A DNA stretch of 64,000 nt, taken from NCBI GenBank assembly GCA_907163375.1, contig CAJQUW010010466.1:1-64000 (forward strand), read 5' to 3'. Position numbers and translations under genes: made by a program. The notes beneath the pieces are model-generated. The model was not told the origin of the DNA. It was given only the letters and a program-made list of their open reading frames with translations, and ran no database searches. Shown one piece after another: positions 736 to 17,861 of this stretch. Numbering within the stretch: the first letter of the stretch is position 1; the number at the start of each line of letters is the position of its first letter. The stretch is from Prostheceraeus crozeri. Its lineage: Eukaryota > Platyhelminthes > Polycladida > Euryleptidae.

Positions 736-810
736 TCAAAATATTTCATTCAAAATATTTCTTTAAAAAAAAATGGAAAGAAACAAAAATGGAAGAAACC
801 GCAAAGAATA

Positions 811-979
811 ATATCCTTCGTTATCATATGAACGTAGTTCTACTTTAATGGACATTGAAAAGATTAACATTGAAAAAATGAATAAAGAAAAACACAAAGA
901 TAGAGTTAGGTATATGAAAGATAAGGAATCTCAATTATTATTAAGATTAGAGCATTATAAAAAATTAAGAAAGAGATGG
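811..979. repeat. Left arm of a 169-bp perfectly identical inverted repeat
   Basis: This segment is the exact reverse complement of 17575-17743, read base by base (169/169). Outside it the two ends are still related but contain indels: a 2-nt difference just upstream, and about 55 nt missing in the right copy downstream. It represents the surviving core of the terminal inverted repeats. Confidence 0.9.
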
Positions 980-1300
980 ACTAAAGTTAAGAATGTAACA
1001 CAAGGAATTGGCATATACTTAACAATAAGTTTAGGTGTTGTAACAATTGTTATATCTTCAGGTGTTTTAGTAATTCCAGTAGTTGCTACAGCTTTCACAG
1101 GTACGGGTGTTGTTGCAACTTCACTTGCTACAAAGTTGATAACTCTTTAATAACTAAGAAACGAAAATCATTAAAAACCTAGCATTTACAACTTAAAGCA
1201 GTTGATGATAAATACCACTCTACTTCAAAGAGTTTGTGATGATAATGTTATTACGTTAGTTGAGATTGAAAAAATTTGATGCAAATAGCTAATGAAGTAA
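848..1300 (+). pseudogene. Terminal-repeat gene: coiled-coil plus hydrophobic protein, left copy (broken)
   Basis: The first open part (848-1150, 100 codons) is a charged helical stretch with KMNKEKHKDRVRYMKDKESQ and LEHYKKLRKRW, followed by a hydrophobic, Gly/Val-rich segment (LTISLGVVTIVISSGVLVIP). After the stop, related coding sequence resumes (CDDNVITLVEIEK near 1229-1267), so the gene once ran on and has been broken by frameshifts. A 2-nt insertion upstream also cuts it off from a start at 789 that matches the start of the right copy. From memory, similar proteins (coiled coil, KKRW, hydrophobic block, then a helical C-terminus) occur in animal Polintons; the function is unknown. A membrane-active role is only a guess. 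Confidence 0.65.
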
Positions 1301-1628
1301 ATTCAACTATCCTTTTCAATCACAGACAGAAAAAAGTTAATGATAAAAAATAAAATGGATGGTAAAATTCTAGTGATGGTAAAACTTCTAATGAAGATTG
1401 ATGATAGAAAATTTTTTAATGAAGAAAATGACTAAAATTTTTGTTAGAGCGAAGAGCTAAGCAAAACTATTATTAAGACAAAACTTTATTAAACAAAACT
1501 TAATACGAGAAATTAATTTAAACGAAAAGATGTACCAAACAACAAAGCAATAAAAAAATAATTTGTTCAGTAAAATGTTTTTGCTGTATTCCAATGTTAC
1601 CACAAAATTCAAATATTTTATTTAAAAA
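1301..1628. other. AT-rich spacer with no supportable gene
   Basis: Low-complexity A-rich sequence between the broken terminal gene and the next gene. No open frame of useful length and no known domain. The last ~20 bases before 1629 form the AT start motif (ATTTTATTTAAAAAATG) shared by genes of this element. Confidence 0.5.
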
Positions 1629-2533
1629 ATGGATAAAATTAGAGCTGATAATTTTAAAAGAATAAAACAATTAGAAGAGTTAATAAAACAAAGAAATATT
1701 ATGAAAGAAAATCATCTTCAACATAGAATGATAAAAGCTGGTATTCAATCTGATATGTTTGAAAAAATGCAGCAAACCGAGCACGTAAAAACTGATTTTG
1801 AGACAACTATGAAACATTTAAAACTCTTGAAAAAGAAAGTACAAATAATGATAAACAAAATTGATATAACAGATCCAGAGCACAAAACTGTATTAGATGA
1901 CTAAAGCGGATTACTAGAAAGCAAACATTAATAAGAAATTACCAAAATCTATGCAATTTGAACATTCTATTTCATTTATAGATGGAAAAACAAGACCTAG
2001 ATTTTATCTCGGACAAAAAGAAATATTTCCACAACCTTTTCGAGGTTTAATTTTTTCACCAGATAAATCTCCTTTTAATTTAGATAGAAATTTTGTTAAT
2101 CTTTTAAGAGGAGCAGATTTAAATAATTATGCTGTATGAAGATCTCCATAAAATATAAAGCTATGTTAGGACCAGAGTTGGTGCAGTAAAATCTCTATAG
2201 ACTGTTTAATAAACAATTAAAAATTTATTATCAACGGGAGTTAAAGTAGGGAAAAGGTTTAATATCTGAAAAAACAGAAAACAAAAAAAAACAACAAAAC
2301 AGAAAACAGAAACAACCATATTTTTACCAGATGATCCACAAGAATTACTAAATAGATTAAATATTTTAATATCTGCAATAAAAGAAGGACATAATTCTAG
2401 TTTCAATGAAATTCATGCTATATTGAAAAGACTGTTAGAAAAGAAGATTCTAAATGAAGAGGATTATAAAAGTATAACCGGTCTCTCTGATGTCTTAACC
2501 GTAGCTGAAATTGTTGTTGTTTTAATTTTTTAG
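1629..2533 (+). pseudogene. Conserved adintovirus/Polinton protein of unknown function, broken into three frames
   Basis: Three blocks in three frames read as parts of one protein. Block 1 (1629-1904) is a coiled-coil N-terminus (KRIKQLEELIKQRN, HLKLLKKKVQIMINKID). Block 2 (1951-2139) contains RPRFYLGQKEI and a following LL.GADLNNY. Block 3 (about 2324-2533) contains PDDPQELLNRLNILISAIKE and ends at a TAG. From memory, animal Polintons carry a protein with this order: helical part, a 'FYLG' block, then a C-terminal 'DP..L..RL..L.AS...G' helix. At least two frameshifts separate the blocks. The function is not known to me. The start at 1629 carries the element's AT start motif. Confidence 0.6.
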
Positions 2534-2583
2534 AAAAAAAAAATATTTCATAAAAAAATATTTATTTAAATTTTAACTAAAAA

Positions 2584-3369
2584 ATGTGTTCAGCAGATTT
2601 AGACAAATTAATAATCATTTAGAAAATTTGACAGAGATTTTGGTTCATCAAAATTTAGTACGACGTTAAAAATTATAACAACTACTTCATCACACACTTG
2701 TAATTTAGAACCCATTCTACATTTGGAACAAAATAAAAATTATCAAATTGCATTGACTAGTTTCTCACATTTAACACTATTCAAAACGTTATCAAAGATG
2801 TGAATGATCAATTTAGATATTCTACTGATAAAGGCAAAACATGGAAAATATTAACTTTTCTTCCTGGTTCTTACGAAGTTGAAACAATATCAAATGAAAT
2901 TAAGAGACATTTAGGTATACCATTTAAAGATAAGAAACAATTACATTTTGCAGTTGAACCGGCAGTTAATAAATTTTCTCTTACTTTAGACGAAAATCAT
3001 CAAGTTGATTTTAATCATGATAGATCATTGTCAAAGCTATTAGGATTTAATAAACAAACCTATAGTCAAGGTTATCATTTAGGTGAGAAGATTCCAAAAA
3101 TAACTGAAATAAATTCAATTGTTGTACATTGTGACATTATTGAAGGAGGATATATAAATGGTAAATTGTCAAATTTAATATTCAGTTTTCCAGCTTTTAC
3201 TGTACCCATTGGTTATAGATTAAATGTATTTCCACAAACATTAATATATTTTCCTATTACAAGAAAAACTATTAACAACATTAACATTAGAATCACTGAT
3301 GAAAAAGGACAAGAAATAAATTTTGGAGGTGAAGAGATTATGATAGATCTTTTGGTTCGGGAGGTATAA
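2584..3369 (+). pseudogene. Penton-like minor capsid protein, N-terminal part frameshifted
   Basis: The long open part (2800-3369) is read without a normal start. Upstream coding sequence continues in other frames back to an ATG at 2584 that carries the AT start motif. The frame order is 1, 2, 1, so there are frameshifts near 2615-2627 and 2765-2780. Recognisable blocks: FSTTLKIITTTSS, LEQNKNYQIALTSF, FRYSTDKGKTW, LPGSYEVETI, and the C-terminal NINIRITDEKGQEINFGGEE. These are the signature of the penton-like protein of animal Polintons (single jelly roll, five-fold vertices). It lies just upstream of the packaging ATPase. The last codons and the stop fall in a 21-nt hairpin repeat that begins at 3361. 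Identification is from remembered family motifs. Confidence 0.75.
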
Positions 3370-3438
3370 ACTCCCGTTCGAGAGGTATAAACTCCCGTTC
3401 GAGAGGTATAAACTCCCGTTCGAGAGGTATAAACTCCC
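3361..3438. repeat. 21-nt hairpin repeat, 3.7 copies
   Basis: Unit gaggtataaactcccgttcga repeats at 3361, 3382, 3403 and 3424. In the first copy GGGAG and CTCCC can pair around a gtataaa loop. It begins inside the penton C-terminus and supplies that gene's stop codon. It belongs to the GC-rich hairpin family scattered through this element. Confidence 0.9.
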
Positions 3439-3520
3439 ACGCGAAGCTAGAGAAGTTTAATTTTCTTCTTCTTTAGAAACAAAAAATAAAAAAAATAAAG
3501 ATAAATTTTTTTATTAAAAA

Positions 3521-4287
3521 ATGAGTGAACTACCTCCATTAAATAAAAAAAAACTTAAATTTAATCATCATCCAAATTTATCTAATAAAGTTTTGTCAGT
3601 TATTTGTGGAAGATCAGGATGTGGAAAAACATATCTAATATTTAAAATTTTAACGACTCCAAATTTTTTGGATTATAACAATCTTATAATTTATACAACA
3701 ACAGCAGAACAACCCGTCTATCAATTTTTAAAATATGGATTTGAAAATAATCTTAAAAAAACTGCAATTGCTTCATTATTCAAAGAATATGAAAAATCTG
3801 AAGATGAAGAAGAAATAAGTTCGTGGTGTGAAGAAGCAACAAAAAATAATCAGTTAGTAGAATCTAATAAAAATAAGCATATAAAAATACAATTAATAGA
3901 TGATAGTGGTAATATGCAAGATCCTAGTAAACTAGATAAAACAATGAAACATTGTGTAATTTTTGATGATTGTGTTAATGATAGAAATCATCAGTTCAGA
4001 GAAATTATTTCACAAGAGGTAGACATAATAACTGTAGTGTATTTTATTTAACACAAAGTATGTATTCATTAGACGGAAGTGTTATTAGAAAGAATGCAAA
4101 TATATTTATACTATTTGAAATAAATGCAAGAAACTTAAGTGATTTGTTAAGAGATTTATGTGTAAGAAATAAAGATGAATTTAAACAATCGTGTAACAAT
4201 GCTTGGTCAAAAGATTATGGATTTATCACAATTAATATTGATAAAAAAATTCATGAAAGAGTTATAGAAAATATTTTCGAGGAGTGA
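3521..4287 (+). pseudogene. A32-like / FtsK-HerA family DNA-packaging ATPase, one frameshift
   Basis: The packaging motor expected to drive viral DNA into capsids. The N-terminal part (3521-4051) has a Walker A motif, CGRSGCGKTYL (about residues 28-38), and a Walker B strand ending in FDD (CVIFDDCVN). The protein then leaves frame near 4000-4012. Translation one frame back from about 4010 gives RGRHNNCSVFYLTQS, the usual sensor-like block, and runs through to 4287 (ILFEINARNLSDLLRDL). The shift is one base; the local sequence gaaattatttcac has no X-XXY-YYZ slippery site, so a deletion or a sequencing error fits better than programmed slippage. It is preceded by TTTTTTATTAAAAAATG and followed directly by a short GC-rich repeat. 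Confidence 0.85.
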
Positions 4288-4317
4288 TCGAACGGAGTGA
4301 CCGAACGGAGTGGCCGA
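4278..4317. repeat. 13-nt GC-rich repeat (cgaacggagtgac), about three copies
   Basis: Three successive copies with small changes overlap the last codons of the ATPase. CGG-agtga-CCG can pair within a unit. Composition stands out from the AT-rich surroundings, as in the other hairpin insertions. Confidence 0.75.
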
Positions 4318-4363
4318 ATAATTTTTTCTTATAAATTTTTTGTTAATAAAAATAAAAAAAAAT

Positions 4364-4693
4364 ATGTTGAATGATTATAAGATAGAGCATGTACCAGTTT
4401 TAAAAGATTATCGTCATCCTACAAATCCTGTAAATTCGAAGAAAGAAGCTAGATTTTATTATCATCATAAATACGTAGCGCTCGTTACAGATTATAAAAC
4501 AAAACATGGTATTAAACCGTGTGTTAAAACAAAAGACTTTCCACTTTGTTTAAGAAGTTTCCGAGTATTTTTGGCGTATAATAATTTATGGTGGTTGGTT
4601 AAGAAAGAACATTTAACAGCACATGAATTAGAAACATTACATCAATTACATATTCCTGTGTATATGCAAAAACGGAACCGAGGTTCTATGTAA
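4364..4693 (+). CDS. Hypothetical adintovirus protein, 109 aa
   Basis: The start is taken at the ATG at 4364, after an A-rich run; an in-frame TTG farther upstream is not convincing. The protein is basic and aromatic, with FYYHHKYVALVTDY and FRVFLAYNNLWWLVKKEHL, and ends with two short helical stretches. No family is recognised. It sits between the ATPase and the polymerase on the same strand. Its final codons include a 12-nt hairpin (GAACC-ga-GGTTC, 4675-4686), so the C-terminus RNRGSM may be recently added. It could be an early regulatory or DNA-binding protein, but nothing in the sequence proves this. Confidence 0.6.
   Translation: MLNDYKIEHVPVLKDYRHPTNPVNSKKEARFYYHHKYVALVTDYKTKHGIKPCVKTKDFPLCLRSFRVFLAYNNLWWLVKKEHLTAHELETLHQLHIPVYMQKRNRGSM
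4675..4686. repeat. Short hairpin GAACC-ga-GGTTC
   Basis: Single perfect 5-bp stem at the 3' end of the 4364-4693 gene. Weak alone; listed because it matches the composition and placement of the other hairpins of the element. Confidence 0.5.
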
Positions 4694-4718
4694 AAATTCA
4701 TTTTTTCTTTTAAAAAAT

Positions 4719-5069
4719 ATGAATCGTGAAATGTCTCTCGGACAAACCTCTAGGATTGATGAATTAATCGAGAAACAAATTGCTGAGTTTGATGCGCAAA
4801 TTAAACATAGTAAACGTAGTAAACGTATTAGAAAACAGAAACGTACTAGGCGTAGTATTAGACGTAATACTAAAAAACAGAAAAGTGGAACAAAAGAAAT
4901 ATTAGAAACTCCTATTACTGATATCTTTTTCGATGATAGAATTAAGGATGAACTTGGTGATGATTTATGTAATTTATTTAATCCAAATGAAATTAAATAT
5001 GAAAATGTATCTTTTATTAATGTAGTAAATGATATGCGGAAACTTTTAGCAAATGGTAAAAATTATTAA
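4719..5069 (+). CDS. Hypothetical small basic protein, 116 aa
   Basis: ATG follows TTTTAAAAAAT, the common start motif. The middle (about residues 30-60) is a run of Arg/Lys (KRSKRIRKQKRTRRSIRRN) typical of a nucleic-acid-binding or nuclear-localisation segment. The C-terminal half is acidic and helical. The end overlaps the start of the polymerase reading frame by 17 nt (5053-5069), so the two are probably expressed together. The position immediately before a protein-primed polymerase makes a replication accessory role conceivable, but no motif shows it. Confidence 0.55.
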   Translation: MNREMSLGQTSRIDELIEKQIAEFDAQIKHSKRSKRIRKQKRTRRSIRRNTKKQKSGTKEILETPITDIFFDDRIKDELGDDLCNLFNPNEIKYENVSFINVVNDMRKLLANGKNY

Positions 5070-6056
5070 TTTACTTGGAAAAGTTATTAAAGATCAGGAA
5101 AATATAATTCAAAATTTTTACGTAACCTTCTATAATAAAAAATCATTTGAAACATGGTTTTCGAATCTGGATGAGAAATCCGATGCTAACGAATGGATTT
5201 TTACAGGTAATATTAAATATGAAGATTTTGGAATGAAGTTAGTACAAAGATCGCATAGAGGGGCAGGGATTAATATGAAATATAGAATCAAAGAATATTT
5301 CGGTGAATATTGTTATATTCCTTCTGAAGATTTTTGTTTTATTAAATGTTATAATGTTTTACGAGGTTTTAATGAAGAACAAGGAGAAATTATGAAAGAA
5401 ATGTTTAATAATTTTTTATATAAAGAGAAAGCCACATCTAGAACAGGAGTAATGTCAAACTGCAAATTTTCTCAATTCAATAAATATTTTGGAGAATGTG
5501 TTCAATATTATAGTCCTGCCAATCGTCATTTAAATCCTAGAGGAATTGAAACGTTTCATAATTATGTTTATTACAATTATTTTCACGCAGGTTCAACAAT
5601 TGGTCACTATTGTTTAATTAATAAATCTCATAAATTAAAAGCTATTAGAGAAATTGAAAATAATTTCAAACCCATATATAAAACAGTTACTGATGAAAAT
5701 CTAACAACGCGTCCATATAAAATCATAACAAAGAAAAAAATTGACTATGGTTCAACATATATTTGGGATCTCGAAACTTTTCCCGATCCTAACTGTTCAA
5801 CAGCTCATCCTATTCCTTACGCTGTAGGAGCTATTAATTTTAATAAATTTATATGTTGTTTACCGAAACAAAGATTGAAAGAATTAGAAACACGTTTGCT
5901 AAGTGATATGATTAAAATTAAACGATCAAAAGATGAAGATGAAATTAAAAAACTTAAAAAACAGATTAATGAGTATAATAATTTAACTGAATTAGAATTT
6001 AATAAACTTCAAAATTGTGTGAAAATATTTACGAGAACTGAGGATGATGAATGTTC

Positions 6057-6089
6057 GATCGGGGAAACCCAGAGGACGTATGTCCGATC
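6057..6089. repeat. Double-hairpin insertion at the first polymerase frame break
   Basis: Outer arms GATCGG/CCGATC enclose GGG-aaa-CCC and GGAC-gtat-GTCC. The 33-nt unit shares its layout with 12837-12870 and 9081-9111. The reading frame of the polymerase changes at or next to it. Confidence 0.85.
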
Positions 6090-6803
6090 CATCAATTTTT
6101 TAAAACTCTTGGAAAATTTAATTATTCTAGAGTAACTTTAATAGCACACAATTCATCAGGTTTTGATTCCTATTTTCCGATAAAAGCTAATTTTAAATTA
6201 TCTAAACCGCCTCTTAAAACTTCAAGAGGAATATTGACTGCTTCATTACAAAATCCTTATACAACTGAATGTGTTAGTAGATACATTCAAAAATCTTTTA
6301 GATTTAAAAACAATATGAAAAAAGATTCACCTTCAGGTAAATTAGCACTTCAAACTATTATAATGAAATGTAGTTATCAACATGTAAAAACAAGTCTTTC
6401 TAAATGGTGTGAGAATTTTAAAATTCCTACGAATGTGTGTAAATTAAATTATGAAATTGGAGACATAACACATGAAAATTATAAAGAAAAAGAAAATGAA
6501 TGGAGACCATATTTAGTTAACGATATTCTTTCTTTAGCTTTTTGTATCTACAAATATAATAATGTTATGCGAGATTTAGTTGGTGAAGATATAACTACTA
6601 ATTTGACATCCTCTGCTTTAACATTTAACGGTTGGATGAAAAGCGTACAAAATGACAATATAAATATTCATTCTCATATAGATTTATGGGCTAGAAATTA
6701 TATTAGAAAATCTGTTAAAGGTGGAAGAGTTTCAGCAAATATAAGAAAATACATATCGCCATTTTTGTAGCATCTTGTTACCAATATTAAAACAGTATTT
6801 ACC

Positions 6804-6893
6804 TGGTCGCTGCGCTGGGGGGACTTTGTCCCTTGGTCGCTGCGCTGGGGGGACTTTGTCCCTTGGTCGCTACGCTGGTGGGACTTTGTCCCC
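6804..6893. repeat. Three 30-nt hairpin units inside the polymerase gene
   Basis: Units at 6804, 6834 and 6864. Each contains GGGAC-ttt-GTCCC and, in the first two, CGC-t-GCG. The last unit has three base changes. The block is in frame and encodes a Gly/Cys/Leu-rich repeat unlike polymerase sequence. Confidence 0.92.
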
Positions 6894-8286
6894 GGGAAAT
6901 AATTTAATAGATTTAATGAAACAGTATCGAGATTTAGGAGATAAAACTGAAATTTGTAAGAAAATTTCAAATCAACTACTTGAACAAAAAAATGAATTTC
7001 TAATGGCTTTTGATGCAACATCTTTATATCCATCAGCTATGTATGATGAAAATTCAGAATACCCTAAAGCTGAATCAGCTAGAAAATTTCGTCAAGAAGA
7101 AGAGCGGGAAATAGTATATAAATTTAATACTCAAACATTTAGACCTAAAACTGGAATATTCTCTGTTGTGTTTCAATATCCGAATGATATGTTTTTCCAA
7201 CCAGTTCCTATTAAAGATAAAGTTAAAAATCAAAATAATAATTCTCATGTAAAAGTAATCAGGTTTAGAAATGGTATATGTTATGATGTATTAACTTCTG
7301 TTGACATACAAGAAATTGTTAGATGTGGGGGGAAAATCTTACATATTACTGATGGTATAATTTATGAAAAAAATTATCAAGTTTCACCATTTCGAAATTA
7401 TATTGAAAAACTTTTTAATTTGAGAAAAAGATATAAAACAGAAGGAAATACTGTAGGTGATGAGTTAATTAAATTATTGATGAATTCGCTATATGGCAAA
7501 ACTGTGCAAAAAGATATAACCACTAAATATCATTTATGGAATGAGAATACATTGAGAAAAAATTTCACTCAAGAAGTAAAAGATTATGAAAAATTAAATG
7601 ATGAACAATATTTAGCGAAAGTAGAAATGGAAGATGATGAATTTCTCAAAACTAATATTGTAAAAGATGGGAAGACGTCATTCATGCCATCACACTTAGG
7701 TTCTTTCATTCTTTCTCACTCTAGAAGAATCATGAATAACTTTATTTTAGAAATTAATGGTTTCAAAGAAAAATACATTCATTATACAGATACTGATTCA
7801 ATATATATTTCCAATGAGCTCTTTAATAAATTAGATGCTGCTGGATATGTTGGTGGGGAATTGTGTCAAGGAAAAAATGATTATGGAAATGGTGGAATTA
7901 TTTTTGCAATGTTTATTGCTCCTAAAATAAAATACTGTATTACTGTAGATGAACAAGGGAGACTTAGTGAAAAGAAAACATTCAAAGGATATTCACAAGA
8001 TAAAGTAAAAGTAGAAGATTTTCTAAAATTATATTCGGGGAAAACATTATCGACTACAGTTAATAAACCATGGAAAAGATCTTTAGAAACTGGAATTAGT
8101 ATTCCTGATAAAAATAATAATACTGAAGAAAAAAAATTTTCTGGTCAAATAAATATTCTTAAACGTCAAGCACCTGATGAAAATGAAATTATGTTACCTT
8201 ATAACGGAGAAGATATTCAAGCTGAAATATTTCAAACAATCATCTGTGAGAGTAATTTAAGTGATGATGATGACACGTGGGAATAA

Positions 8287-8480
8287 TAATTTTTTTATAA
8301 CATCTAAAAAATTTATAACATCTAAAAAATTTATAACATCTAAAAATTTATAACATCTAAAAACTTATTCCATCTAAAAAATTTATTACATCTATAAACT
8401 TATGACATCTAAAAACTTATTACATCTAAAAACTTATTACATCTAAAAATTTTATTACATATGAAAATATATTTATCGAA
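8287..8480. repeat. Short AT tandem repeat between convergent genes
   Basis: About ten imperfect copies of an 18-20-nt unit built on 'aacatctaaaaaattta'. It separates the 3' ends of the polymerase (plus) and the 8513-9847 gene (minus). It could act as a bidirectional transcription end, but this is inference. Confidence 0.8.
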
Positions 8481-8512
8481 TATTTTGGTATTTTCTATTA
8501 AGTTTTATCTTA

Positions 8513-9847
8513 TTAAGTTTCATCATATAATGTTTTATCAAAAGATAATTTAAATTTTTTTTCACTAACTATTGATTCATCATCATCATCATCATCATAA
8601 ATTGTTTCTTCATCATCATCATAAATTGTTTCTTCATCATCATAAATTACACTTTTTGGTATAGGATGCCCTTCCATGATAGGATACCATTCTCTTATTG
8701 GAATATCTAACTCTAAATTACATCTTTTATCTGATAATAATATAATAGAGAAAAATATTGGTCTTTGATCTCTTTTGGAAAATTTAATAACACCACCATA
8801 ATCTGAATCACTTTTAGTTTTTGTTAAAGATGATAAAATTTTAAATTGATTAGATGTAAATCCTAATTTAAATTTTGTAGACCCGACACATAGTTGTCTA
8901 ACAGTATCTTCAACTATACCATCATTATTATTTTCAATTGTAAGAAAATGAAATTTAGATAAATTTTTATAATTACTAATATTTTTATAATCTTTTTTAC
9001 CATTTACACCATTTTCAGATGTTTCAGAATCATCATTATTATCATCTATATTATTATCATTATTATCATAAGATTCTTTAAGATCGGGCAAAGCCCTAGA
9101 ACCTTCAGTTCGTTTATTATGAATATGATTATGGTCATTGTTAATAGTATAAGGCGTAGTCCACATATAAATTTTCTCTTGTTGAGCTAAGCCATTTATG
9201 TAAGATTTTAGCAAATTAATATTTAAGTTTGAATATAATCCTATATACGTATCATCATCATATCTTTGCGGCATTTCTAATGTTTCTTGTTTATAAATTG
9301 TGTCTCTATAATAAACTTGACATAATAATTCTTCATTATGTTTTTTACTCTCTATGTGAATGTTATATTGATTTTGTTCGTCAACAAATAATCTAATTTT
9401 TTCTTTCGAAAAAGATTTTAATTTTTTAACTAATTCTTTAATATTGATATAATTAATAATTTTAGTTTCTATCCAATCAGTATTACTAATTGGTAACACT
9501 GCTCTAATAAATCCATAAACATTATTATGACCTATTATAACCATATTTTCTTTATTTAATTCCACATAAGCTACATCATTATATTTACTAACAATCTCCA
9601 TAAATTTAATAAATGGATCACCTGGAAAAATACAATAATTGGTTTCTATAGAAGGTAAACCTTTAGTCTGTTCTCTAAATATTTCGGCTTGTAATTGAAA
9701 TAAAATATTAACATCTATACATGGATTTGTAATAGTATTATTATTATTATTATCAAAACATTTATTTTCAAATCCCGTTGATCTCGTCGAATAAGAAGAA
9801 CAGGATGATGCGGACGAATATAATTTTTTTAAATTTGGGGTTTCCAT
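8513..9847 (-). CDS. Unknown 444-aa protein, possibly sliding-clamp-like
   Basis: One of three minus-strand genes in the element. The N-terminus is low-complexity (Ser, then Asn runs). About residues 60-190 and 310-390 look like two beta-rich domains separated by an Asn/Asp-rich linker. Segments such as KELVKKLKSFSKEKIRLFVD and FKLGFTSNQFKILSSL loosely resemble the strands of PCNA-like clamps. The C-terminus is an acidic repeat (IYDDDEETIYDD). The clamp idea is weak; I recognise no defining motif. The linker contains an in-frame double hairpin (9081-9111) encoding part of GSRALPDL. The gene is divergent from the fibre-like gene and convergent with the polymerase, so it may belong to an early unit. 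Confidence 0.6.
   Translation of the reverse strand: METPNLKKLYSSASSCSSYSTRSTGFENKCFDNNNNNTITNPCIDVNILFQLQAEIFREQTKGLPSIETNYCIFPGDPFIKFMEIVSKYNDVAYVELNKENMVIIGHNNVYGFIRAVLPISNTDWIETKIINYINIKELVKKLKSFSKEKIRLFVDEQNQYNIHIESKKHNEELLCQVYYRDTIYKQETLEMPQRYDDDTYIGLYSNLNINLLKSYINGLAQQEKIYMWTTPYTINNDHNHIHNKRTEGSRALPDLKESYDNNDNNIDDNNDDSETSENGVNGKKDYKNISNYKNLSKFHFLTIENNNDGIVEDTVRQLCVGSTKFKLGFTSNQFKILSSLTKTKSDSDYGGVIKFSKRDQRPIFFSIILLSDKRCNLELDIPIREWYPIMEGHPIPKSVIYDDEETIYDDDEETIYDDDDDDESIVSEKKFKLSFDKTLYDET
9081..9111. repeat. Double-hairpin insertion in the 444-aa gene
   Basis: GATC, then GGGC-aaa-GCCC, TA, then GAAC-cttca-GTTC. Same layout as 6057-6089 and 12837-12870. In frame, within the low-complexity linker. 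Confidence 0.85.
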
Positions 9848-9943
9848 TTTTTTATTTTTATTAGAAAAAATTTTATTTTTATTAGAAAAAATTTTATTTT
9901 TTTATTTTTATTAGAAAAAATTTTATTTTTTTATTGTTAAAAA
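9848..9943. promoter_or_regulatory. Divergent AT-repeat promoter region
   Basis: About 95 bp between two divergent start codons, made of repeats of 'tttttattagaaaaaatt' and ending TTTTTATTGTTAAAAAATG on the plus side. On the minus side the start is preceded by AAAAATAAAAAAATG. It must hold both promoters. Which polymerase reads it is unknown. Confidence 0.6.
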
Positions 9944-10831
9944 ATGATGTTACCAAATGTTGGTGGAGGTGCATATATCCCGAATAATCGTGAATTAGAA
10001 ATAGAGATAGAAAATTATATTATGAAAACTGGAGACGTTTTATCTGGTCCATTGCATCTTTCTATTCTTCCACAACAAAATACAGAGTTAACAAATAAAC
10101 AATATGTTGATACACAAATCAATGACTTAAAGGAAAAATATATAAACGATGTTTTGGTTCCACTGATGAACGAATTGAAGTTGCTTAAACTTAATGACAA
10201 ATCATTAAACGAAAAATTATTAAAACTTGATAAAAAGGATAGAGAGCTAGAAGCAGATATAGCAAAACTTTTTAAAAAGATTTCTGAACAATCAAAAATT
10301 TTAATATTACTTTCTATAAATTTAAAATCTGCAGTCATTAAAAATAAACATCAGATAAAAATGTTAAAAGAACAATTAGAAGATGAAATAGAAAAACTAC
10401 CTGAAAGAATTAAAAAAAATTTAAAGCAGTTACAAACTACATTCCAAAAAAGTGTTGATGAATTGAGTTCTAAAATTACTCAACAAATGAAAAAGATGAA
10501 TAGAATAATAAATGAAGTAAACTCACTTAATGAAAAAGTTGATAAAATGAAAACTCTTAAAATCAATTTAGAAAATGAATTAAAGAAAAATTTACAAGAA
10601 AACTCTAAAGAAAATAAAGAACAGTTAGATGCTGTTAAAAGACAATTAGATGTTCTTAAAATTAAGTTAAATGCTCTTAAAACGGCGTTGAAGATTAATC
10701 AGCAGAAAATGCAAGTTAATAGAAGAGAAATTAAAGTACATCACACGCTGCTTGACGCAATAGATAAAGTGCAACAGGCAATTAATAAAGTTATCTCGAA
10801 GTTGTTGTCCATTCACAAACGTAAATCTTAA
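9944..10831 (+). CDS. Fibre-like coiled-coil protein with tail-fibre type N-terminal motif
   Basis: 295 aa. Residues about 28-62 read MKTGDVLSGPLHLS ... ELTNKQYVDTQI. This matches the 'M-(x)-G-xLxM ... AVNKKYVD' block that recurs at the shaft of phage tail fibres and in some eukaryotic virus fibres. The remaining ~230 residues are an almost unbroken Lys/Glu/Leu heptad coiled coil (LNEKLLKLDKKDRELEADIA and onward). This suits a trimeric vertex spike, though no receptor-binding head domain is recognisable. The gene heads a plus-strand run followed by a minor virion protein and the major capsid protein, in keeping with a structural role. Confidence 0.65.
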   Translation: MMLPNVGGGAYIPNNRELEIEIENYIMKTGDVLSGPLHLSILPQQNTELTNKQYVDTQINDLKEKYINDVLVPLMNELKLLKLNDKSLNEKLLKLDKKDRELEADIAKLFKKISEQSKILILLSINLKSAVIKNKHQIKMLKEQLEDEIEKLPERIKKNLKQLQTTFQKSVDELSSKITQQMKKMNRIINEVNSLNEKVDKMKTLKINLENELKKNLQENSKENKEQLDAVKRQLDVLKIKLNALKTALKINQQKMQVNRREIKVHHTLLDAIDKVQQAINKVISKLLSIHKRKS

Positions 10832-10873
10832 CACGTAGATATTTTTCCCAAAAGTCAAATTTAATCCTAAAAA

Positions 10874-11395
10874 ATGCCTATAATTTATAAACACAATCTT
10901 AAACATTTTGCATCAAATAATAAAATTGCTCATGAACCATCTATGAAACCTGTGTACCATTATGATAGTGTAGAAACTGTCGGAACACAAAAGTTCCTAG
11001 GCACCGCAGGTGCCGTCCAAAAAGAAGGAGATGGCATCTTTTCTGGTATTGGTAGTATCGTTAACTTAATTAAAAATAATAAAGATTTGATTACATCTGC
11101 TGCAAAAGGAGCAGCTGCTATAGGTAGTACAGCTAGTGCAATATCAAATGCTGTTAAGTCTCAAAACGAATTAAAACAACTAGAAGCTATTCGTAAACTT
11201 AGGAATGATTCTGAAGAACTAAAAAAATTAAAAAAACTTTCAGATGAAACAAAAAATAAAATTGCTAACATAGCTGTGGATGGTGATAGTAAACATAATG
11301 AAAAAACAATTGAAGAAATAAGAGGTAATGGCGTGAGCAGCAACCTTCGGTCTAACCAGCAAAGCTGTAGCGGAGCTGGTCTAGCAAAATTCTAA
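10874..11395 (+). CDS. Minor virion protein candidate (Gly/Ala-rich hydrophobic centre), 173 aa
   Basis: Starts 42 nt after the fibre-like gene at CCTAAAAAATG. A central segment of Gly, Ala, Ser and Ile (SIVNLIKNNKDLITSAAKGA, then AAIGSTASAISNAV) is followed by a Lys/Glu helix. Adintovirus structural clusters carry one or two such proteins, compared by others with adenovirus pVI/pX; here this rests on composition and position only. Two hairpins (10981-11015) and another cluster (11341-11382) are translated, the latter forming the Ser/Asn/Gly-rich C-terminus. It ends just before a 23-nt repeat. Confidence 0.5.
   Translation: MPIIYKHNLKHFASNNKIAHEPSMKPVYHYDSVETVGTQKFLGTAGAVQKEGDGIFSGIGSIVNLIKNNKDLITSAAKGAAAIGSTASAISNAVKSQNELKQLEAIRKLRNDSEELKKLKKLSDETKNKIANIAVDGDSKHNEKTIEEIRGNGVSSNLRSNQQSCSGAGLAKF
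10981..11015. repeat. Double hairpin in the 10874-11395 gene
   Basis: GGAAC-acaaaa-GTTCC followed by GGCACC-gca-GGTGCC, with CGG/CCG at the outer edges. Translated in frame. Confidence 0.8.
11341..11382. repeat. Hairpin cluster at the 3' end of the 10874-11395 gene
   Basis: ACC-ttc-GGT, then ACCAGC...GCTGGT with an inner CAGC-aaa-GCTG. It forms the gene's last ~18 codons. Confidence 0.75.
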
Positions 11396-11457
11396 AATTA
11401 TATTTAGTAAAATTCTAAAATTATATTTAGTAAAATTCTAAAATTATATTTTAGTAA
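11384..11457. repeat. 23-nt AT tandem repeat downstream of the minor virion gene
   Basis: Three copies of 'aaaattctaaaattatatttagt'. The first overlaps the stop codon region of the preceding gene. Possible 3' end signal or simple expansion. Confidence 0.85.
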
Positions 11458-11511
11458 AAATTTTTTTTCTGTCTGTGAGAAAAACAAAAAGTCAAATTAT
11501 TTCTTATAAAA

Positions 11512-12846
11512 ATGCCTTCGCTTATCGAAAATAAATTTAGATTAGATGATCCTCCGTTCACCAGTTACAATCAAAAAAAGAATGACTATATAAGAATTGC
11601 TATGAATCCCGGATCTTCCAGTAGAGTAAATACTGGAGGTGATTTAATTTTTGAAGTTGATAATCAGCAGAGTTATTTATATTTACCTGATTCATTTTTA
11701 CACTGTGAATATTCTTTATATAGTGATGCTAATTTTACAACACCATTACCAGATACCGATAATATTACACTAGAGAATAATTTTTTTCCAAGATTATTTA
11801 CACAAATGCGTTTAGATGTTGCAACTCAAAATATAGAAACAATAAGTGATTCCCCAGGTGTAATTGATACAATGCTTAGATTTGTAACAATTGGTGAAAA
11901 TAATAAAAAGTATGAAATCGAAGGTTGGTTTCCTGATACTAATGATGGTATAATTGTTGATGATTTAACTCACGCTGGAACAGATGCAGCAGGAATTGCG
12001 AAAGATGTAGAAAATATTGCAAAACATTTAAATAAAACAAATAATGATGCATATAAAGAAAGACGTGAATTTAACAAGAAAAGTAAACAGACAGTAAATT
12101 GGTCATTGTCTCCATTATTCGGATATTTAGATTATGACAAAATATCATATCAATTTAAATTTAAATTAATAATTCATCGTACGGCAAATAATGAATTAAT
12201 CTTTTTTGGTAAGACTGGAAAAAAAGCATATTTAAAAATTGATAGACTTGAATGGTGGATTACGCATATTACTCCTAGTTTAGAGGTTGAAACAGCTATT
12301 GCAAAAAGATTAAATACTAACAAACCAATTCCAGTAAATTTTCTAAAGAGTACTGCTAGTTCAGTAACTTTTTCCGAACAAAGATTTAACTGGCATTTTA
12401 CTAGAACTGCGAATACCCCAAGATATTTATTACTAACATTTCAAAGAAATAATTCTCCAAGTTTTGATAAGAACAATAATATTTTTCATATTAATACAAT
12501 TCGAAGTTTACAAGTTTCATTAAATCAAACTCGATATCCAATTGATCCATTAAGATTCGATGATACCAATAATCAATTTATGGAAGGATATGATTGTTAT
12601 AGAAATCTTTGTATAGAATTTGGAGTTGAACCACAATTAACTCCTGGAGATTGGAGACATTTATATCCAATTTTCTGTTTCGATTTAAGTGCACAATCTG
12701 AAGATATTATTAAAAATGGTTGTGATGTAACAATTAATATTGAAAAGAAAGATTCCACAACTTCATTGATGGCTTATGGTTTATTGCTAGAAGATGTAAA
12801 ATATTCTATTGAAGTTCTTAATGGGAAGATGGTTAGGATCGGCTAA
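11512..12846 (+). CDS. Major capsid protein (hexon-like, double jelly roll)
   Basis: 444 aa, intact. Recognisable blocks: NPGSSSRVNTGGDLIFEV near the N-terminus, LENNFFPRLFTQMRLDV (about residues 90-106), PGVIDTMLRFV, the DRLEWWITHITPSLEVE block (about 244-260) and NTPRYLLLTFQRNN. These are the conserved stretches of the animal adintovirus/Polinton capsid protein, which forms pseudo-hexameric trimers. The start has TTCTTATAAAAATG. The stop codon lies inside a double hairpin (12837-12870), so the last residue or two and the stop come from the insertion. This is the best preserved of the virion genes. Confidence 0.92.
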   Translation: MPSLIENKFRLDDPPFTSYNQKKNDYIRIAMNPGSSSRVNTGGDLIFEVDNQQSYLYLPDSFLHCEYSLYSDANFTTPLPDTDNITLENNFFPRLFTQMRLDVATQNIETISDSPGVIDTMLRFVTIGENNKKYEIEGWFPDTNDGIIVDDLTHAGTDAAGIAKDVENIAKHLNKTNNDAYKERREFNKKSKQTVNWSLSPLFGYLDYDKISYQFKFKLIIHRTANNELIFFGKTGKKAYLKIDRLEWWITHITPSLEVETAIAKRLNTNKPIPVNFLKSTASSVTFSEQRFNWHFTRTANTPRYLLLTFQRNNSPSFDKNNNIFHINTIRSLQVSLNQTRYPIDPLRFDDTNNQFMEGYDCYRNLCIEFGVEPQLTPGDWRHLYPIFCFDLSAQSEDIIKNGCDVTINIEKKDSTTSLMAYGLLLEDVKYSIEVLNGKMVRIG

Positions 12847-12870
12847 AGCCAGAGGAGCTTCGCTCCGATA
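12837..12870. repeat. Double hairpin carrying the capsid gene stop
   Basis: GATC, GGC-taaa-GCC, AGA, GGAGC-ttc-GCTCC, GATA. The TAA of the capsid gene is in the first loop. It closely follows the layout of the polymerase insertion at 6057-6089, including the shared AGAGGA between hairpins. Confidence 0.88.
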
Positions 12871-12899
12871 GGTTAAAGCACAAGACTTAGTCGATTAAT

Positions 12900-13060
12900 T
12901 AATTTTTTTCATAACAAGAATAGATTAAAATTTTTGTTAACTTAAAAATTCTTAACTTAAAAATTTTTTCATAACTAGAATAGATTAAAAAAATTCTTAA
13001 CTTAAAATTTTTTCATAAATAGAATAGATTAAAATTTTTGATAACTTAAAATTTTTTTAT
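12900..13060. repeat. AT tandem repeat between capsid and pX-like genes
   Basis: Imperfect copies of 'cataactagaatagattaaaaatttttgttaacttaaaaatt', four in about 160 bp. No gene. The last copy leads into the start motif TTTTTTTATTAAAAATG. Confidence 0.8.
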
Positions 13061-13065
13061 TAAAA

Positions 13066-13548
13066 ATGTCGCAAGCGAAAAGTAATAATAATAAAACTGT
13101 TGAATTAAAATTACGTAATATTGTTGACAAAAATACCCCTAAAACTATTACGATTAACAAAAAAAAGTATTACATAAGTAAACCAATGATAGAGAATATT
13201 CAATTACAAGAAGAAAAGAATGGCGGGATTCTCCCATTAATTCCACTAATAATAGGAGGCATAGCTGCAGCAGGAAGTGTTGCAGGTGGGACAGCTGGTA
13301 TTGTCCAAGCAGTAAATAAAAATAAATCAGAGAAGGCAGCATTAGAAGAACAAAAACGTCATAACAGAGAGTTAGAGAAAGTTGCTAGGGGAGAAGGAAT
13401 AGTAGATAATTTTATTAGTAAATTAAAATTAATTGATGAAGGAAAACGAGTTCTTAAAAATATTCTCCACAATGTTGATGATTTAATTGAAATTAAAGAA
13501 ACTAAAGATGGTTCTGGAATATATCTAAGTCCTAGTATGATAAGGTAA
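13066..13548 (+). CDS. pX-like minor virion protein
   Basis: 160 aa. The hydrophobic Gly-rich core ILPLIPLIIGGIAAAGSVAG (about residues 50-70) is followed by a basic/acidic helix with EEQKRHNRELEKVARGEG. The C-terminus has GSGIYLSPSMIR. In adintoviruses, and loosely in adenovirus pX/pVI, a short protein with this hydrophobic block is thought to act on DNA or membranes during entry. The assignment rests on this block plus its place between capsid protein and PLA2/integrase. Start motif TTATTAAAAATG. Confidence 0.65.
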   Translation: MSQAKSNNNKTVELKLRNIVDKNTPKTITINKKKYYISKPMIENIQLQEEKNGGILPLIPLIIGGIAAAGSVAGGTAGIVQAVNKNKSEKAALEEQKRHNRELEKVARGEGIVDNFISKLKLIDEGKRVLKNILHNVDDLIEIKETKDGSGIYLSPSMIR

Positions 13549-13624
13549 TAACCTCAAGACCTTTGGTTCTTTTCGGTAAAACATTTATTTTATTTTATCT
13601 TTTAAATTTTTTTTATCTTTTAAA

Positions 13625-14962
13625 ATGAATTCTAAAAATTCCGAAAATTTAATTAAATTAAAAATTTCTAATTTAGATTTATTGAATTATCTATTAAACA
13701 AAAATAAAAACTCAAATTGTCAGCATATTGGAGGTGACAAGAACAAAGTTCCACACCACTTCGGTGGTGATATACAAAAAACATTAGAAAACTTTCCTGG
13801 ATTTATTTGGAGTAAATATTCGAAAGAAAAACATCTTCCTGGTCATTCATATACCGGTCCAGGAACTCGATTAGATATAAGACTAGATGAGAATAATAAT
13901 CCGAAACCAGGTGAAGAACCAATAAATAGAGTAGATGCCGCCGCTTACAGGCATGATTTAGCTTATCGAAATCATGATCTAAGTTCTCGACATGCAGCTG
14001 ACAAGAAGATGATTCAAGAATTAGATAGTATTCAGAATCCTACATTTAGAGAAAAAATTGAAAGAATGTTTGTTAAGAAAGCTTTACAAGCTAAAATATT
14101 ATTCGGCCAGGGTTTAAATGAAACGACAGCAAAGCTGTCTGAGAGCAACGCTCGAAATCATAATTCAGACGTTTATGCATCTGAAATTCATAAAGAATAT
14201 AGAAAGCCTAAATATTTATTAAAAGTAAAAGTATTTAATAAAGATGATATTTGGAGTGCTGATCTTATTCATATGCCGAATGAAAGGGACTACAAATCTG
14301 CATTGACCGTTATAGATTTATATACACGATATGCTTGGGTAAAGCCTTTAAAAAATAAAAGTGGTCTTTCAGTTAAATATGCGTTTGAAGAAATCTTTAA
14401 AGAAAGTAATAGAAAGCCAAAAAAATTGTTTGTTGATAAAGGGTCGGAATTTTATAACCGAAACGTTCAGCCACTATTTGAAACTGTTTATTCAACTGAA
14501 AACGCAGGAAAAGCTATAGTGATAGAAAGATTCAATCGGACGTTAAAAAATAAATTTTTCAAGAAATTTACTCAGCAAGGAAATCAGAAATGGTTAAAAA
14601 TATTACCAGGAATTGTGGAAGAGTACAATAATAAAGTTCATTCAGGTATTGAAGAAACTCCAAAGAATGCTTCTGACGACCCTGATTTGATACGAAAGAA
14701 AATATTCGAGAATAATAATTTGAATGAGAGTAATCCGAATTTGCAGAAACTTAAGCCGAAATTTAAAATTGGAGATAGAGTTAGAATAATTAAATATAAG
14801 AACAAATTTGAAAAAGGCTTTGTTGGCTATTGGACTAAAGAAATATTTGAAGTTTGCAAAATAAATAAAACTTATCCGATTACTTATGAAATTAAAGATT
14901 TAGATAATGAGGATATCAGAGGTCGTTTTTATCAAAATGAATTACAGAAAACAGAGCTTTAG
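13625..14962 (+). CDS. Phospholipase A2 domain fused to retrovirus-type integrase
   Basis: 445 aa in one frame. Residues about 60-135 form a PLA2 domain of the parvovirus VP1 type: YTGPGTRLDIRL (Ca-binding loop), then VDAAAYRHDLAYRNHD with the catalytic HD pair, then the AADKKM helix. Such domains breach endosomal membranes in parvoviruses. After KILFGQGL, a usual end of stand-alone PLA2 proteins, comes a hairpin insertion and then a DDE integrase: SADLIHM, KLFVDKGSEF, VIERFNR supply D, D, E. The C-terminal part (KFKIGDRVRIIKY, YEIKDLDNE) is an SH3/chromo-like domain. Normally I would expect two genes; the join may be secondary or an artefact of indels. A second in-frame hairpin lies at 13739-13770. 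Confidence 0.85.
   Translation: MNSKNSENLIKLKISNLDLLNYLLNKNKNSNCQHIGGDKNKVPHHFGGDIQKTLENFPGFIWSKYSKEKHLPGHSYTGPGTRLDIRLDENNNPKPGEEPINRVDAAAYRHDLAYRNHDLSSRHAADKKMIQELDSIQNPTFREKIERMFVKKALQAKILFGQGLNETTAKLSESNARNHNSDVYASEIHKEYRKPKYLLKVKVFNKDDIWSADLIHMPNERDYKSALTVIDLYTRYAWVKPLKNKSGLSVKYAFEEIFKESNRKPKKLFVDKGSEFYNRNVQPLFETVYSTENAGKAIVIERFNRTLKNKFFKKFTQQGNQKWLKILPGIVEEYNNKVHSGIEETPKNASDDPDLIRKKIFENNNLNESNPNLQKLKPKFKIGDRVRIIKYKNKFEKGFVGYWTKEIFEVCKINKTYPITYEIKDLDNEDIRGRFYQNELQKTEL
13739..13770. repeat. Double hairpin in the PLA2 N-terminal region
   Basis: GAAC-aaa-GTTC, then CACCAC-ttcg-GTGGTG. Flanked by a direct repeat ggaggtgac / ggtggtgat spaced 33 nt, suggesting a 33-nt duplication or insertion. 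Translated as KNKVPHHFGG. Confidence 0.82.
14125..14153. repeat. Double hairpin at the PLA2-integrase junction
   Basis: GACAGC-aaa-GCTGTC, TGA, GAGC-aac-GCTC. Read in frame as part of TAKLSESNAR. The TGA between the hairpins is out of frame. Confidence 0.82.
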
Positions 14963-14977
14963 CTAGCTTCGCTTGAG

Positions 14978-15438
14978 TTATAGATTGTTTAACTCTAACA
15001 TAATATCTAGAAATGGTACTCCTTTTTGTAATTTAAATAAAACATAAAGACATAATTGTCCACAATAAGTAGTGCCTGGTGTTTGAATTTGAAACGTATT
15101 GTATGTTCCCGTTCCAAGTAATTCTTTTACTTCATTTGTAGGTGGAAGCCCGTATGAGTCAAAATAATAATTATCTCCGTTTTTACTAAAGATACCTGCT
15201 GACCAATGTACGCCGTTTTGGTCTGAAGTGTGAAGATTCGTTATGAAATTTACAGTTATTGATGGAACTTTGTTCCGGGAACTGAAGGTTCCTGATGGCC
15301 TATTTTTAGGAATTGTAATTCGTTTCTCATTAGAACATGAAAATTCTTTATTCCTAATTCATTTGCGATTTTCTTTAGGTCGAAATTTGTCGTAGTTTGC
15401 GTTCCATATAATTTAAAAAACTCATTTATGTTGCTCAT
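14978..15438 (-). pseudogene. Adenain-type cysteine protease, one frameshift
   Basis: Virion maturation protease related to adenovirus protease. The N-terminal part reads from an ATG at 15438 (preceded on its strand by TTATTATAAAATG) with FDLKKIANELGIKNFHVLMR. The frame then ends at 15256, and the rest is read one frame over to a stop at 14978. The second part shows the catalytic His in GVHWSAGIF, the acidic residue in YYFDSYGLPP, the FQIQ glutamine region and the active Cys in YCGQLCLYVLF. A double hairpin (15261-15297), with direct repeat CCATCA on its coding-strand edges, lies at the break. It is convergent with the integrase gene 15 nt away. All catalytic residues remain, so the break may be recent or a sequencing error. 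Confidence 0.85.
15261..15297. repeat. Double hairpin at the protease frame break
   Basis: GGAAC-ttt-GTTCC then GGAAC-tgaag-GTTCC. On the coding strand the insertion is bracketed by the direct repeat CCATCA. It sits between the N-terminal and catalytic parts of the protease. Confidence 0.82.
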
Positions 15439-15475
15439 TTTATAATAAAAAAAATTTCTTAAGAGACCCCTAGAA

Positions 15476-15837
15476 GTCAGAGGGGGGGGGTATTGATTTA
15501 AAACTGGTCTCTAATGATGTCTTTCCTTACTACTTAGTCAGAAGGGAGGGGGTATTGATTTAAAACATTTTTATAATGATGACTTTCCTTACTACTGGGG
15601 GGGGTATTGATTTAAAACTGGTCTCTAATGATGTCTTTCCTTACTACTTAGTCAGAAGGGAGGGGGTATTGATTTAAAACTGTTCCACAATGATGACTTT
15701 CCTTGCTACTTAGTCAGAAGGGAGGGGGTATTGATTTAAAACTGGTCTCTAATGATGTCTTTCTTTACTACTTAGACAGAAGGGAGGGGGTATTGATTTA
15801 AAACTGTTCCACAATGATGACTTTCCTTGCTACTTAT
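15476..15837. repeat. 61-bp tandem repeat with alternating variants (six units)
   Basis: Units contain G-run + tattgatttaaaac + variable core + ttactacttagtcag. Two core variants alternate: 'ggtctctaatgatgtc' and 'gttccacaatgatgac' (an acatttttataatgatgac form occurs once). This is a dimeric higher-order repeat with runs of five to nine Gs. It is non-coding and lies upstream of the protease start. Confidence 0.9.
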
Positions 15838-16231
15838 TCGATTTTGAAATGATTTAATTTAATCTAAATTTAAACGTTACATTGTTGCATTTTATTCTTA
15901 TGAACTCTTGTTAAGAGAATATTGATTGTTTGATCTGTATTAAGACATTAGCAACATCTGTTACCAAATTTCTCAACATGAACAGCTGCTAGCAGTTTAA
16001 GCTATTCAGTATGAGAGAATTCTTTGTGACCCGCATAACTCAACTTTTCACTTGAACAGCTGCTGCCATTATTCCACGTATTACTGCGTGCATTATTCAT
16101 TCTGCGAGCGTTCTACGAGACTGTGACTGCTTACGAATCATCTGTGACCTTTATCTATTTTGGTCAATTTCATCAGCGACTTTCAACAATTTTATTTTTT
16201 ATCATAATTAATTCACTACGTTTTAACGAAA
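15838..16231. other. Non-coding spacer, less AT-rich than the viral core
   Basis: No gene or repeat recognised. It may hold the promoter of the 16232 gene. It contains 'gaacagctgct' twice (about 15980 and 16055). Confidence 0.5.
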
Positions 16232-16822
16232 ATGGCACGTTCAAGCATCGCCTTTGCCGATTTGAAAAGAAAAATTTCAGACACTATTGTGAACGAAGAT
16301 CAACGGAAGAAGTGTATTGAGATGCTAACAGAATTTCAGGAGAAATATCTTAAACCAAGGGAGGAAGAAGACATCCACGCATCAAAAACATTCAGAGAAT
16401 TTTTAGTGATAAATCGATTTGAAGACACATTGCAAGATAACGCCATCAATATCAGTTCAAACTATAATTTTGAAGAAGAAATTCAAAGAGACATCTTACC
16501 ATCAGAGCTAACTAATTATTTAGCACATTTAAGAAGAGAAGAAGACATTTCGGTGAACAATACTGTGAAGTTATCGCGTATAAAAGGAAGAGCTTTGACT
16601 GCAATCCGGGGAAGTGGCCATGTTTGTAAACAATTAGGTTATTCGAGAGGCTATAGCATCTTTTTAAGAAAATTTTATAAACTATATTTACGATTTCCGT
16701 TTATTAAGAACTCGACGGAATCTATATCATTTTTCAAAAGGAACTTCGCTATTATTGACTCGTATCTTCGCCATGGGAGACACCGCCCAACCCTTGATCA
16801 AATTTTAAACTCAATCAATTGA
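16232..16822 (+). CDS. Orphan accessory protein, 196 aa
   Basis: A clean open frame from ATG 16232. Base use is less AT-rich than in the viral core genes, and the start lacks the AT start motif (it has TTTTAACGAAAATGG). The protein looks alpha-helical: an N-terminal helix pair (LKRKISDTIVNEDQRKKCIE, LTEFQEKYL), a charged middle, and a basic C-terminal half with GRALTAIRGSGH and LRKFYKLYLRFPF. No family recognised. Position between tandem repeats at the right end is typical of variable accessory genes of Polintons. It may have come from the host or another virus; a role against host defence is speculation. Confidence 0.6.
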   Translation: MARSSIAFADLKRKISDTIVNEDQRKKCIEMLTEFQEKYLKPREEEDIHASKTFREFLVINRFEDTLQDNAINISSNYNFEEEIQRDILPSELTNYLAHLRREEDISVNNTVKLSRIKGRALTAIRGSGHVCKQLGYSRGYSIFLRKFYKLYLRFPFIKNSTESISFFKRNFAIIDSYLRHGRHRPTLDQILNSIN

Positions 16823-16887
16823 AACGGTAAGCTACTCCCAATAGATAATAGTACTATGACCCTTCCCTTATTTCAATTTACGAGAAA

Positions 16888-17440: not shown

Positions 17441-17472
17441 ATAGTACTTGTCTGTGATGTGAATAAAATATT

Positions 17473-17793: not shown

Positions 17794-17861
17794 TTTTAAA
17801 TGAATATTTTGAATAAATATTTTGAATAAATATTTTGAATACAATCTTCTGGTATATTGAG

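Follow-up and report, generated by a model that had tools for sequence, protein, structure and literature searches.

How do short, GC-rich, hairpin-forming segments come to lie within the genes of an AT-rich provirus? The question is raised by a 64,000-nucleotide (nt) stretch of contig CAJQUW010010466.1 from the flatworm Prostheceraeus crozeri, referred to here as the window, which contains an adintovirus/Polinton-like provirus. An initial annotation of the window had marked 11 such sites, designated here by position (3361, 4278, 6057, 6804, 9081, 10981, 11341, 12837, 13739, 14125 and 15261), and had likened them, as double-hairpin micro-insertions, to Rickettsia palindromic elements and mitochondrial hairpin elements. 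This likeness is upheld by the precise empty sites that we found in other copies of the provirus. The best explanation, and in our judgement a highly probable one, is that the segments are very short, non-autonomous mobile DNA elements, rich in GC, which have spread through an abundant, AT-rich family of adintovirus-like proviruses. Mostly 28-35 nt long, they have CG...CG ends and fold as a pair of neighbouring mini-hairpins whose loops include AAA, GAA/TTC and TTCG. Insertion beside AT, re-use of one unit, arrays of units joined by AT and persistence in open reading frames are all observed, and a target duplication of 2 nt often accompanies the units.

One unit in dissimilar contexts

Unit A is the double hairpin at the end of the capsid gene (Table 1), and its 24-nt core has 3,344 exact matches in the genome, against 0 for the reversed control. 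We chose among the first 100 matches listed, in part as pairs, and the 20 pieces fetched there represent the capsid-gene end (2), a provirus-end context (8), an open gene (7) and the vicinity of the protease gene and terminal repeats (3). With the dissimilarity of the flanks judged by eye, unit A flanked by AT is present in at least four dissimilar contexts. In all seven open-gene pieces the frame stays open, the unit adding residues such as ESAKARGASLR, and four of the seven also hold a unit-free version of the stretch as a repeat of the gene. In several contigs an open-gene match has a partner in the end context at a distance of about 7 kb, and this suggests a provirus of a related type with a different gene set. 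The open gene itself (L159, L163, L164, L165, L168, L176 and L177) is long, with low-complexity repeats and unit A in frame, and has no DNA similarity to the window outside the unit.

The empty site predicted from the filled end context has 1,822 exact genome matches when a single AT is kept and 0 when both ATs are kept. Among the empty-site matches listed, many form inverted pairs about 16-21 kb apart, as provirus ends would give. When twelve empty copies, picked by exact match, are aligned with eight filled ones, the two sets differ cleanly by 30 nt; the flanks of the empty copies are 79-97% identical to those of the nearest filled copy, three of the twelve reaching only 79-87%.

Presence and absence at sites within genes

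Sites 10981, 12837 and 14125 are precisely absent from some paralogous copies, and 11341 and 15261 are absent from some with small flank differences. At 10981, 36 nt are missing in 5 of 20 copies; at 11341, 30 nt in 7 of 20, with slightly different flanks; and at 15261, 39 nt in 4 of 10. Site 14125 is empty by exactly 33 nt in two of 25 distinct copies, and in three others its second hairpin and spacer are repeated two or three times. These 25 copies come from 27 integrase pieces (L027/L047 and L028/L035 were each fetched twice) and were, for 14125 and 13739, partly chosen for unusual length. At 13739 the sequence is altered but pairs again in two of the 25 (AAACaaaGTTT for GAACaaaGTTC), and one copy holds both versions in tandem. 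A further hairpin insertion of 24-27 nt with GGAGCggaGCTCC, absent from the window, occurs in 8 of 20 copies. Even near-identical copies can differ by a unit: L029 and L022 agree at 1296 of 1302 positions yet differ by the 33-nt unit of 14125, and L078 agrees with L077/L110 at 409 of 411 yet differs by a 31-nt unit. The length is a multiple of three in all five coding insertions for which an empty DNA copy was found (14125, 10981, 11341, 15261 and the 24-27-nt insertion). For the integrase matches, the occurrence of such lengths was dropped as evidence, since translated matches have them by construction.

Proteins present a similar picture. Among 16 relatives of the protein encoded at 10874-11395, 15 cover site 10981; 3 of these have its 12 residues and 12 lack them, another insertion lying nearby in two of the 12. 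At the C-terminus the relatives have no insertion, a short one, or a nested form as in the window. The closest relative of the integrase (75%) is without both linker insertions. When the inserted peptides of relatives were back-translated, hairpin-coding peptides were not distinguishable from others. Copy L067 is identical to the window across the 10874-gene stretch. Pieces L063 and L064 are identical to each other.

For 6057 and 6804, seven of ten fetched pieces did not align; site 9081 is filled in all 12 aligned copies (19 fetched, 7 not aligning). A stretch similar to the 9081 unit (91% over 33 nt) is found in L158, L161, L167 and L174.

Two other origins were considered and rejected. That related elements carry the segments as ordinary conserved protein sequence had been named as a result that would refute the initial annotation; the comparison did not refute it, some close copies lacking them exactly. 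A sequencing artefact was rejected because units are common to independent copies and proteins.

The initial grouping of all 11 sites in one double-hairpin family did not hold, since 3361, 4278 and 6804 are tandem arrays of other units. The array at 3361 has four units in the window, one in four and two in one of five informative copies; at 4278, one of five informative copies (L131) has one unit more. Most of the 20 pieces for these two sites did not align. At 6804 the window has three units and all three aligned copies have two.

Such variation in unit number is what recombination and tandem duplication among proviral copies could produce, and a few old hairpin segments might have been spread in this way with no present transposition. 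The site states require 2 to 5 changes on gene trees, and the 24-27-nt and 11341 insertions occur in all four combinations among copies, as exchange would allow. Homologous exchange, however, neither moves a 28-nt unit between otherwise dissimilar contexts nor makes single-AT empty sites, and we regard this explanation as quite improbable.

The capsid-gene end and changes of stems

Unit A (GAT-CGGCTAAAGCCAGAGGAGCTTCGCTCC) and a second unit, B (GAT-CGGTTAGTAACCTGAGGACCTTTGGTCC), each form two hairpins and are each followed by AT; in longer arrays at the capsid-gene end they alternate. Among 29 copies, 4 have no unit, 19 have one, 3 have two, 2 have three and 1 has four. These counts were made by eye, as the script also cut native 26-nt segments; L113, one of 30 pieces, was dropped because its left anchor was missing.

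The initial annotation had held that stems vary while pairing is kept, and had seen in this selection on structure or templating. The first part stands at one homologous site, 12837, where stems have changed and yet remain paired. Selection on structure is not demonstrated by this, because re-copying of one arm from the other would be expected to produce identical changes. The alignment comprised 15 of 20 distinct segments, leaving out two 38-nt forms, one native segment, the first unit of L069, and L071. With these 15 units aligned to one structure, 97.8% of cells are paired. Two stem pairs have changed on both sides. They give 13 covarying cells where shuffles average 6.2, and none of 500 shuffles reached that number; as a count of pairs, however, 2 does not exceed the 1.8 of the shuffles. 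The shuffle is a weak control because the sequences are mutually related.

These two-sided changes favour template switching, whereby a polymerase copies one arm from the other and hairpins arise and are perfected locally. This mechanism has been published for RNA genes (PMC8794818). A possible trace of it is GGTTAAAGCC in the 12837-empty copy L078, a quasi-palindrome whose two possible corrections are resembled by unit A (GGCTAAAGCC) and unit B (GGTTAGTAACC). However, decay of a unit may have given rise to this native half, the excess of covariation does not extend to the number of pairs, with shuffles that ignore relatedness, and template switching cannot account for one 28-nt unit in four contexts that are dissimilar, with exact empty sites that keep a single AT. 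As the sole cause, with no transposition, it is therefore largely refuted and unlikely, although it is still a likely source of stem drift.

The capsid-gene stop codon falls within the first hairpin of unit A, and a GC-rich site lies within 15 nt of 4 of 14 gene 3' ends where 0.77 would be expected (P 0.007). Both are consistent with functional RNA hairpins that shape transcript ends and are kept by selection, as in the hairpin rule of Mimivirus (PMC4402537). Against this, most listed sites are inside reading frames, genes on either strand carry units, no GC-rich site accompanies 10 of the 14 gene ends, and the capsid-gene end itself is without a unit in the four empty copies. As a general account this is very improbable; a transcript-end role for some units is possible, though not needed.

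Hairpin content against chance

All 11 sites are GC-rich and form hairpins at about the positions first given, which bears out that part of the initial annotation. Strict double hairpins, with two perfect stems of at least 4 bp each (settings 4,2,6), number 5 in the 14.7-kb core of the provirus, whereas 200 dinucleotide shuffles gave a mean of 0.02 and a maximum of 1. Perfect-stemmed double hairpins are thus far more frequent in the core than chance would give. Double hairpins with CG...CG ends also number 5, against 0 in 100 shuffles. A scan for single hairpins (3-nt loop, stem of at least 4 bp with at least 3 G/C; 100 shuffles) returned 12, of which seven have AAA/TTT loops (0.2 per shuffle) and two TTC/GAA loops (0.0 per shuffle); three of the seven belong to a single tandem array, and one of the two (13225) is no insert but part of a conserved stretch of a gene.

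The observation has its limits. Sites 6057, 12837, 11341 and 3361 fold no better than their own shuffles (z -0.86, -1.17, -0.85 and -0.54). At a folding threshold of -6 kcal/mol there is no excess (57 windows of folding against 58.3 in shuffles), and at -12 kcal/mol there are 7 against 0.7. Host DNA, which is more GC-rich, exceeds the element in stable windows and single hairpins per length.

L001, a 7.2-kb Polinton-like contig of 27% GC binned in a bacterial (Muriicola) metagenome genome, contains no double hairpin and no hairpin with an AAA/TTT, TTC/GAA or TTCG loop, although three other small hairpins appear at a looser setting. Such genes therefore do not invariably carry the insertions. 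Read in the AAA/GAA orientation, 129 pieces yield 17 distinct stem strings, some being variants of one hairpin, and 15 of these have C as the last base before the loop; very stable DNA mini-hairpins are a class that such stems fit. An Rfam scan of 700-17900 gave no match at E up to 1. The similarity of 6057 to 12837 (21/33, P 0.025 against synthetic double hairpins) was no more than suggestive before the genome search.

Flanking dinucleotides and target duplication

In 156 pieces, the CG...CG double hairpins have 38 flank contexts, and in 26 of them the flanking dinucleotides are identical, mostly AT. Since flank contexts of one site are not independent, they were collapsed by us to loci, of which 10 of about 17 have identical flanks (chance 0.095 each, P 6e-7). 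In the host part of the window, 0 of 10 such hairpins do. The 2-nt pattern emerged after the empty sites were known. The AA on both sides of 14125 argues for duplication.

Proposed mechanism and points against it

Under the preferred explanation of short mobile elements, a putative trans-acting nuclease or transposase acting on the folded DNA hairpin would insert the units, probably when viral DNA replication exposes single strands. Units that keep the frame in linkers, gene ends and terminal repeats would survive selection; re-copying of one arm from the other by template switching could let stems drift and yet stay paired. We further suggest, as a tentative proposition just short of probable, that at 28-35 nt the units rank with the tiniest transposon-like elements known from nuclear DNA. 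In this reading an enzyme that recognises folded DNA, and not a long recognition sequence, would move them in trans; they would ride in an animal virus lineage and remodel its proteins, while template switching, by rewriting their stems, would keep making new families.

Several points weigh against mobile elements with a 2-nt duplication. No mobilising enzyme was identified, and no search aimed at one was made. Two empty integrase copies nest among filled ones on the tree, so that some empties may be losses or recombination products, and near-identical copies may include allelic duplicates of the assembly. Because copies were found via the open integrase frame, divisibility by three was favoured at 14125 and frame-keeping inserts were favoured in the sample. 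The CG-end rule was fixed after looking at the data, and two earlier tests of flanking repeats, with hairpin-based ends, were not significant (P 0.11 and P 0.49). As the contexts found for unit A have AT, a 30-nt element beside AT is formally equal to 28 nt with a 2-nt duplication. Finally, the dinucleotides are unequal at 10981 and 9081, and none is clear at 15261.

Comparison with known systems

The closest analogue is the GC clusters of yeast mitochondria, followed by sponge-mitochondria hairpins, Rickettsia palindromic elements and the miniature inverted-repeat transposable elements (MITEs) of Pandoravirus. In yeast clusters (GC42 and kin), short flanking repeats, AG or ACT, resemble target duplications, and the movement of such tiny palindromes is unsettled, DNA- and RNA-based routes both being weighed (PMC4478555). 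Like them, the provirus units are GC-rich palindromes in AT-rich DNA with presence/absence polymorphism, short flanking repeats and merger or shuffling of units. The likeness drawn here is one of description: yeast clusters are mitochondrial and mostly intergenic, whereas the units described here are nuclear, in integrated proviruses beside host genes and retroelements, mostly flanked by AT and often in frame within genes, one of them with thousands of core matches.

The elements of sponge and Allomyces mitochondria are likewise GC-rich hairpins, with doubles arising via tandem insertion and mobility suggested; there stems are conserved and loops differ, and those of Allomyces have no flanking duplications (PMC2800124), whereas in the provirus stems vary, loops are kept and a 2-nt duplication is present at some loci. 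Rickettsia palindromic elements are mobile palindromic segments inserted in frame in unrelated genes (PMC10969869), as the provirus units are; they are bacterial and form families of about 150 bp, unlike units of about 30 nt with two mini-hairpins, a distinction drawn by length only. The Submariner MITEs of Pandoravirus salinus are 243 bp long with long terminal inverted repeats and a link to Tc1/mariner, and 10 of 30 lie in coding regions (PMC4495683). They share with the provirus units a non-autonomous nature, a 2-nt target duplication, a paralogous empty site and residence in a DNA virus; the units differ in their 28-35 nt, CG...CG ends and lack of a known transposase. MITEs are defined as 100-600 bp with terminal inverted repeats (PMC4495683); the provirus units have the short direct duplication (AT, or AA at 14125) and precise empty sites, but are far below that length, with short inverted ends (CGG/CCG, CGA/TCG). 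The titles and opening abstract lines of open papers on palindromes and hairpins in adintoviruses and Polintons give no account of such insertions.

The proviruses thus offer a good testing ground for how tiny hairpins move: one genome holds thousands of unit matches, empty sites with their filled counterparts, and sister proviruses that are almost identical, so that one could directly measure rates, the choice of targets, the balance of gain and loss, and the rewriting of stems. The units also supply a DNA virus family with new protein segments that stay in frame.

The carrier provirus and its surroundings

Adintoviruses and Polintons are recognised by a double-jelly-roll capsid protein, family B polymerase, retrovirus-like integrase and terminal inverted repeats. 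All are present in the window's provirus (Table 1). Its ends are imperfect terminal inverted repeats at about 737-1098 and 17507-17851 (best part 174 nt at 99%), and Pfam places the capsid protein (PF21738) at 11512-12846, the polymerase (PF03175) in two parts at 6051-6770 and 6775-8286, and a phospholipase A2-like/integrase fusion gene (PF00665 with PF08398) at 13625-14962. The minus-strand gene at about 14983-15438, which we take to be an adenovirus-type protease, is similar to the protein adjoining the integrase in L001; the integrase of L001 is 55% and its minor protein 43% identical to those of the window. The gene near 4281-4318 is presumably ATPase-like, by position, with no Pfam family match. 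Several reading frames of this provirus copy are broken.

Table 1. Positions in the window of the provirus and of the hairpin units it carries
Feature	Position	Strand	Remarks
Adintovirus/Polinton-like provirus, carrier of insertions	737..17851	none	about 17 kb; inverted repeats and Pfam domains
21-nt GC-rich hairpin unit x4 at gene end	3355..3438	+	tandem array
13-nt GGAGTGACCGAAC unit x2.9 at end of ATPase-like gene	4281..4318	+	tandem array
PolB-gene unit, unit-A layout	6060..6086	+	AT both sides; filled in 3/3 aligned copies (10 fetched); no empty copy seen
30-nt unit x3 between two Pfam-matched PolB parts	6804..6892	+	tandem array
Unit CGGGCAAAGCCCTAGAACCTTCAGTTCG in minus-strand gene	9085..9112	+	flanking dinucleotides AT, TT (differ)
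In-frame double hairpin	10981..11015	+	flanking dinucleotides GT, TC (differ); empty copies known
In-frame 30-nt hairpin insertion near C-terminus of gene 10874-11395	11342..11371	+	ends uncertain
Unit A CGGCTAAAGCCAGAGGAGCTTCGCTCCG, overlapping capsid-gene stop codon	12840..12867	+	AT both sides; 0-4 units across 29 copies
Double hairpin near start of phospholipase A2-integrase gene	13739..13770	+	re-paired and tandem versions in other copies
31-nt unit CGACAGCAAAGCTGTCTGAGAGCAACGCTCG in phospholipase A2-integrase gene linker	14124..14154	+	AA both sides
Double hairpin in minus-strand protease gene	15264..15292	+	empty copies known

The provirus family is very abundant in the host genome. In its 2.05 Gb, 95 integrase places, the window included, were scored among 24,605 first-look candidates; 93 of the 95 have no internal stop, and identity to the window copy is 95-100%. 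No relatives were confirmed in IMG/VR with integrase, major capsid protein and 10874-gene queries and one repeat pattern, and none were found in phage records.

The remainder of the window is host DNA with matches to copia-type and other reverse transcriptases and one to an alkaline phosphatase; matches to a copia-type long terminal repeat retrotransposon (gag, integrase, reverse transcriptase) lie at 49245-53507. Within the provirus, an AT-rich 17-nt tandem repeat, TTTATTACATCTAAAAA, occupies 8294-8473 between the convergent genes PolB and 8513-9847. At the right end, after the protease-like gene and before the terminal inverted repeat, two large tandem repeats, with units of 62/114 nt and 121 nt, lie at 15475-15836 and 16848-17438.

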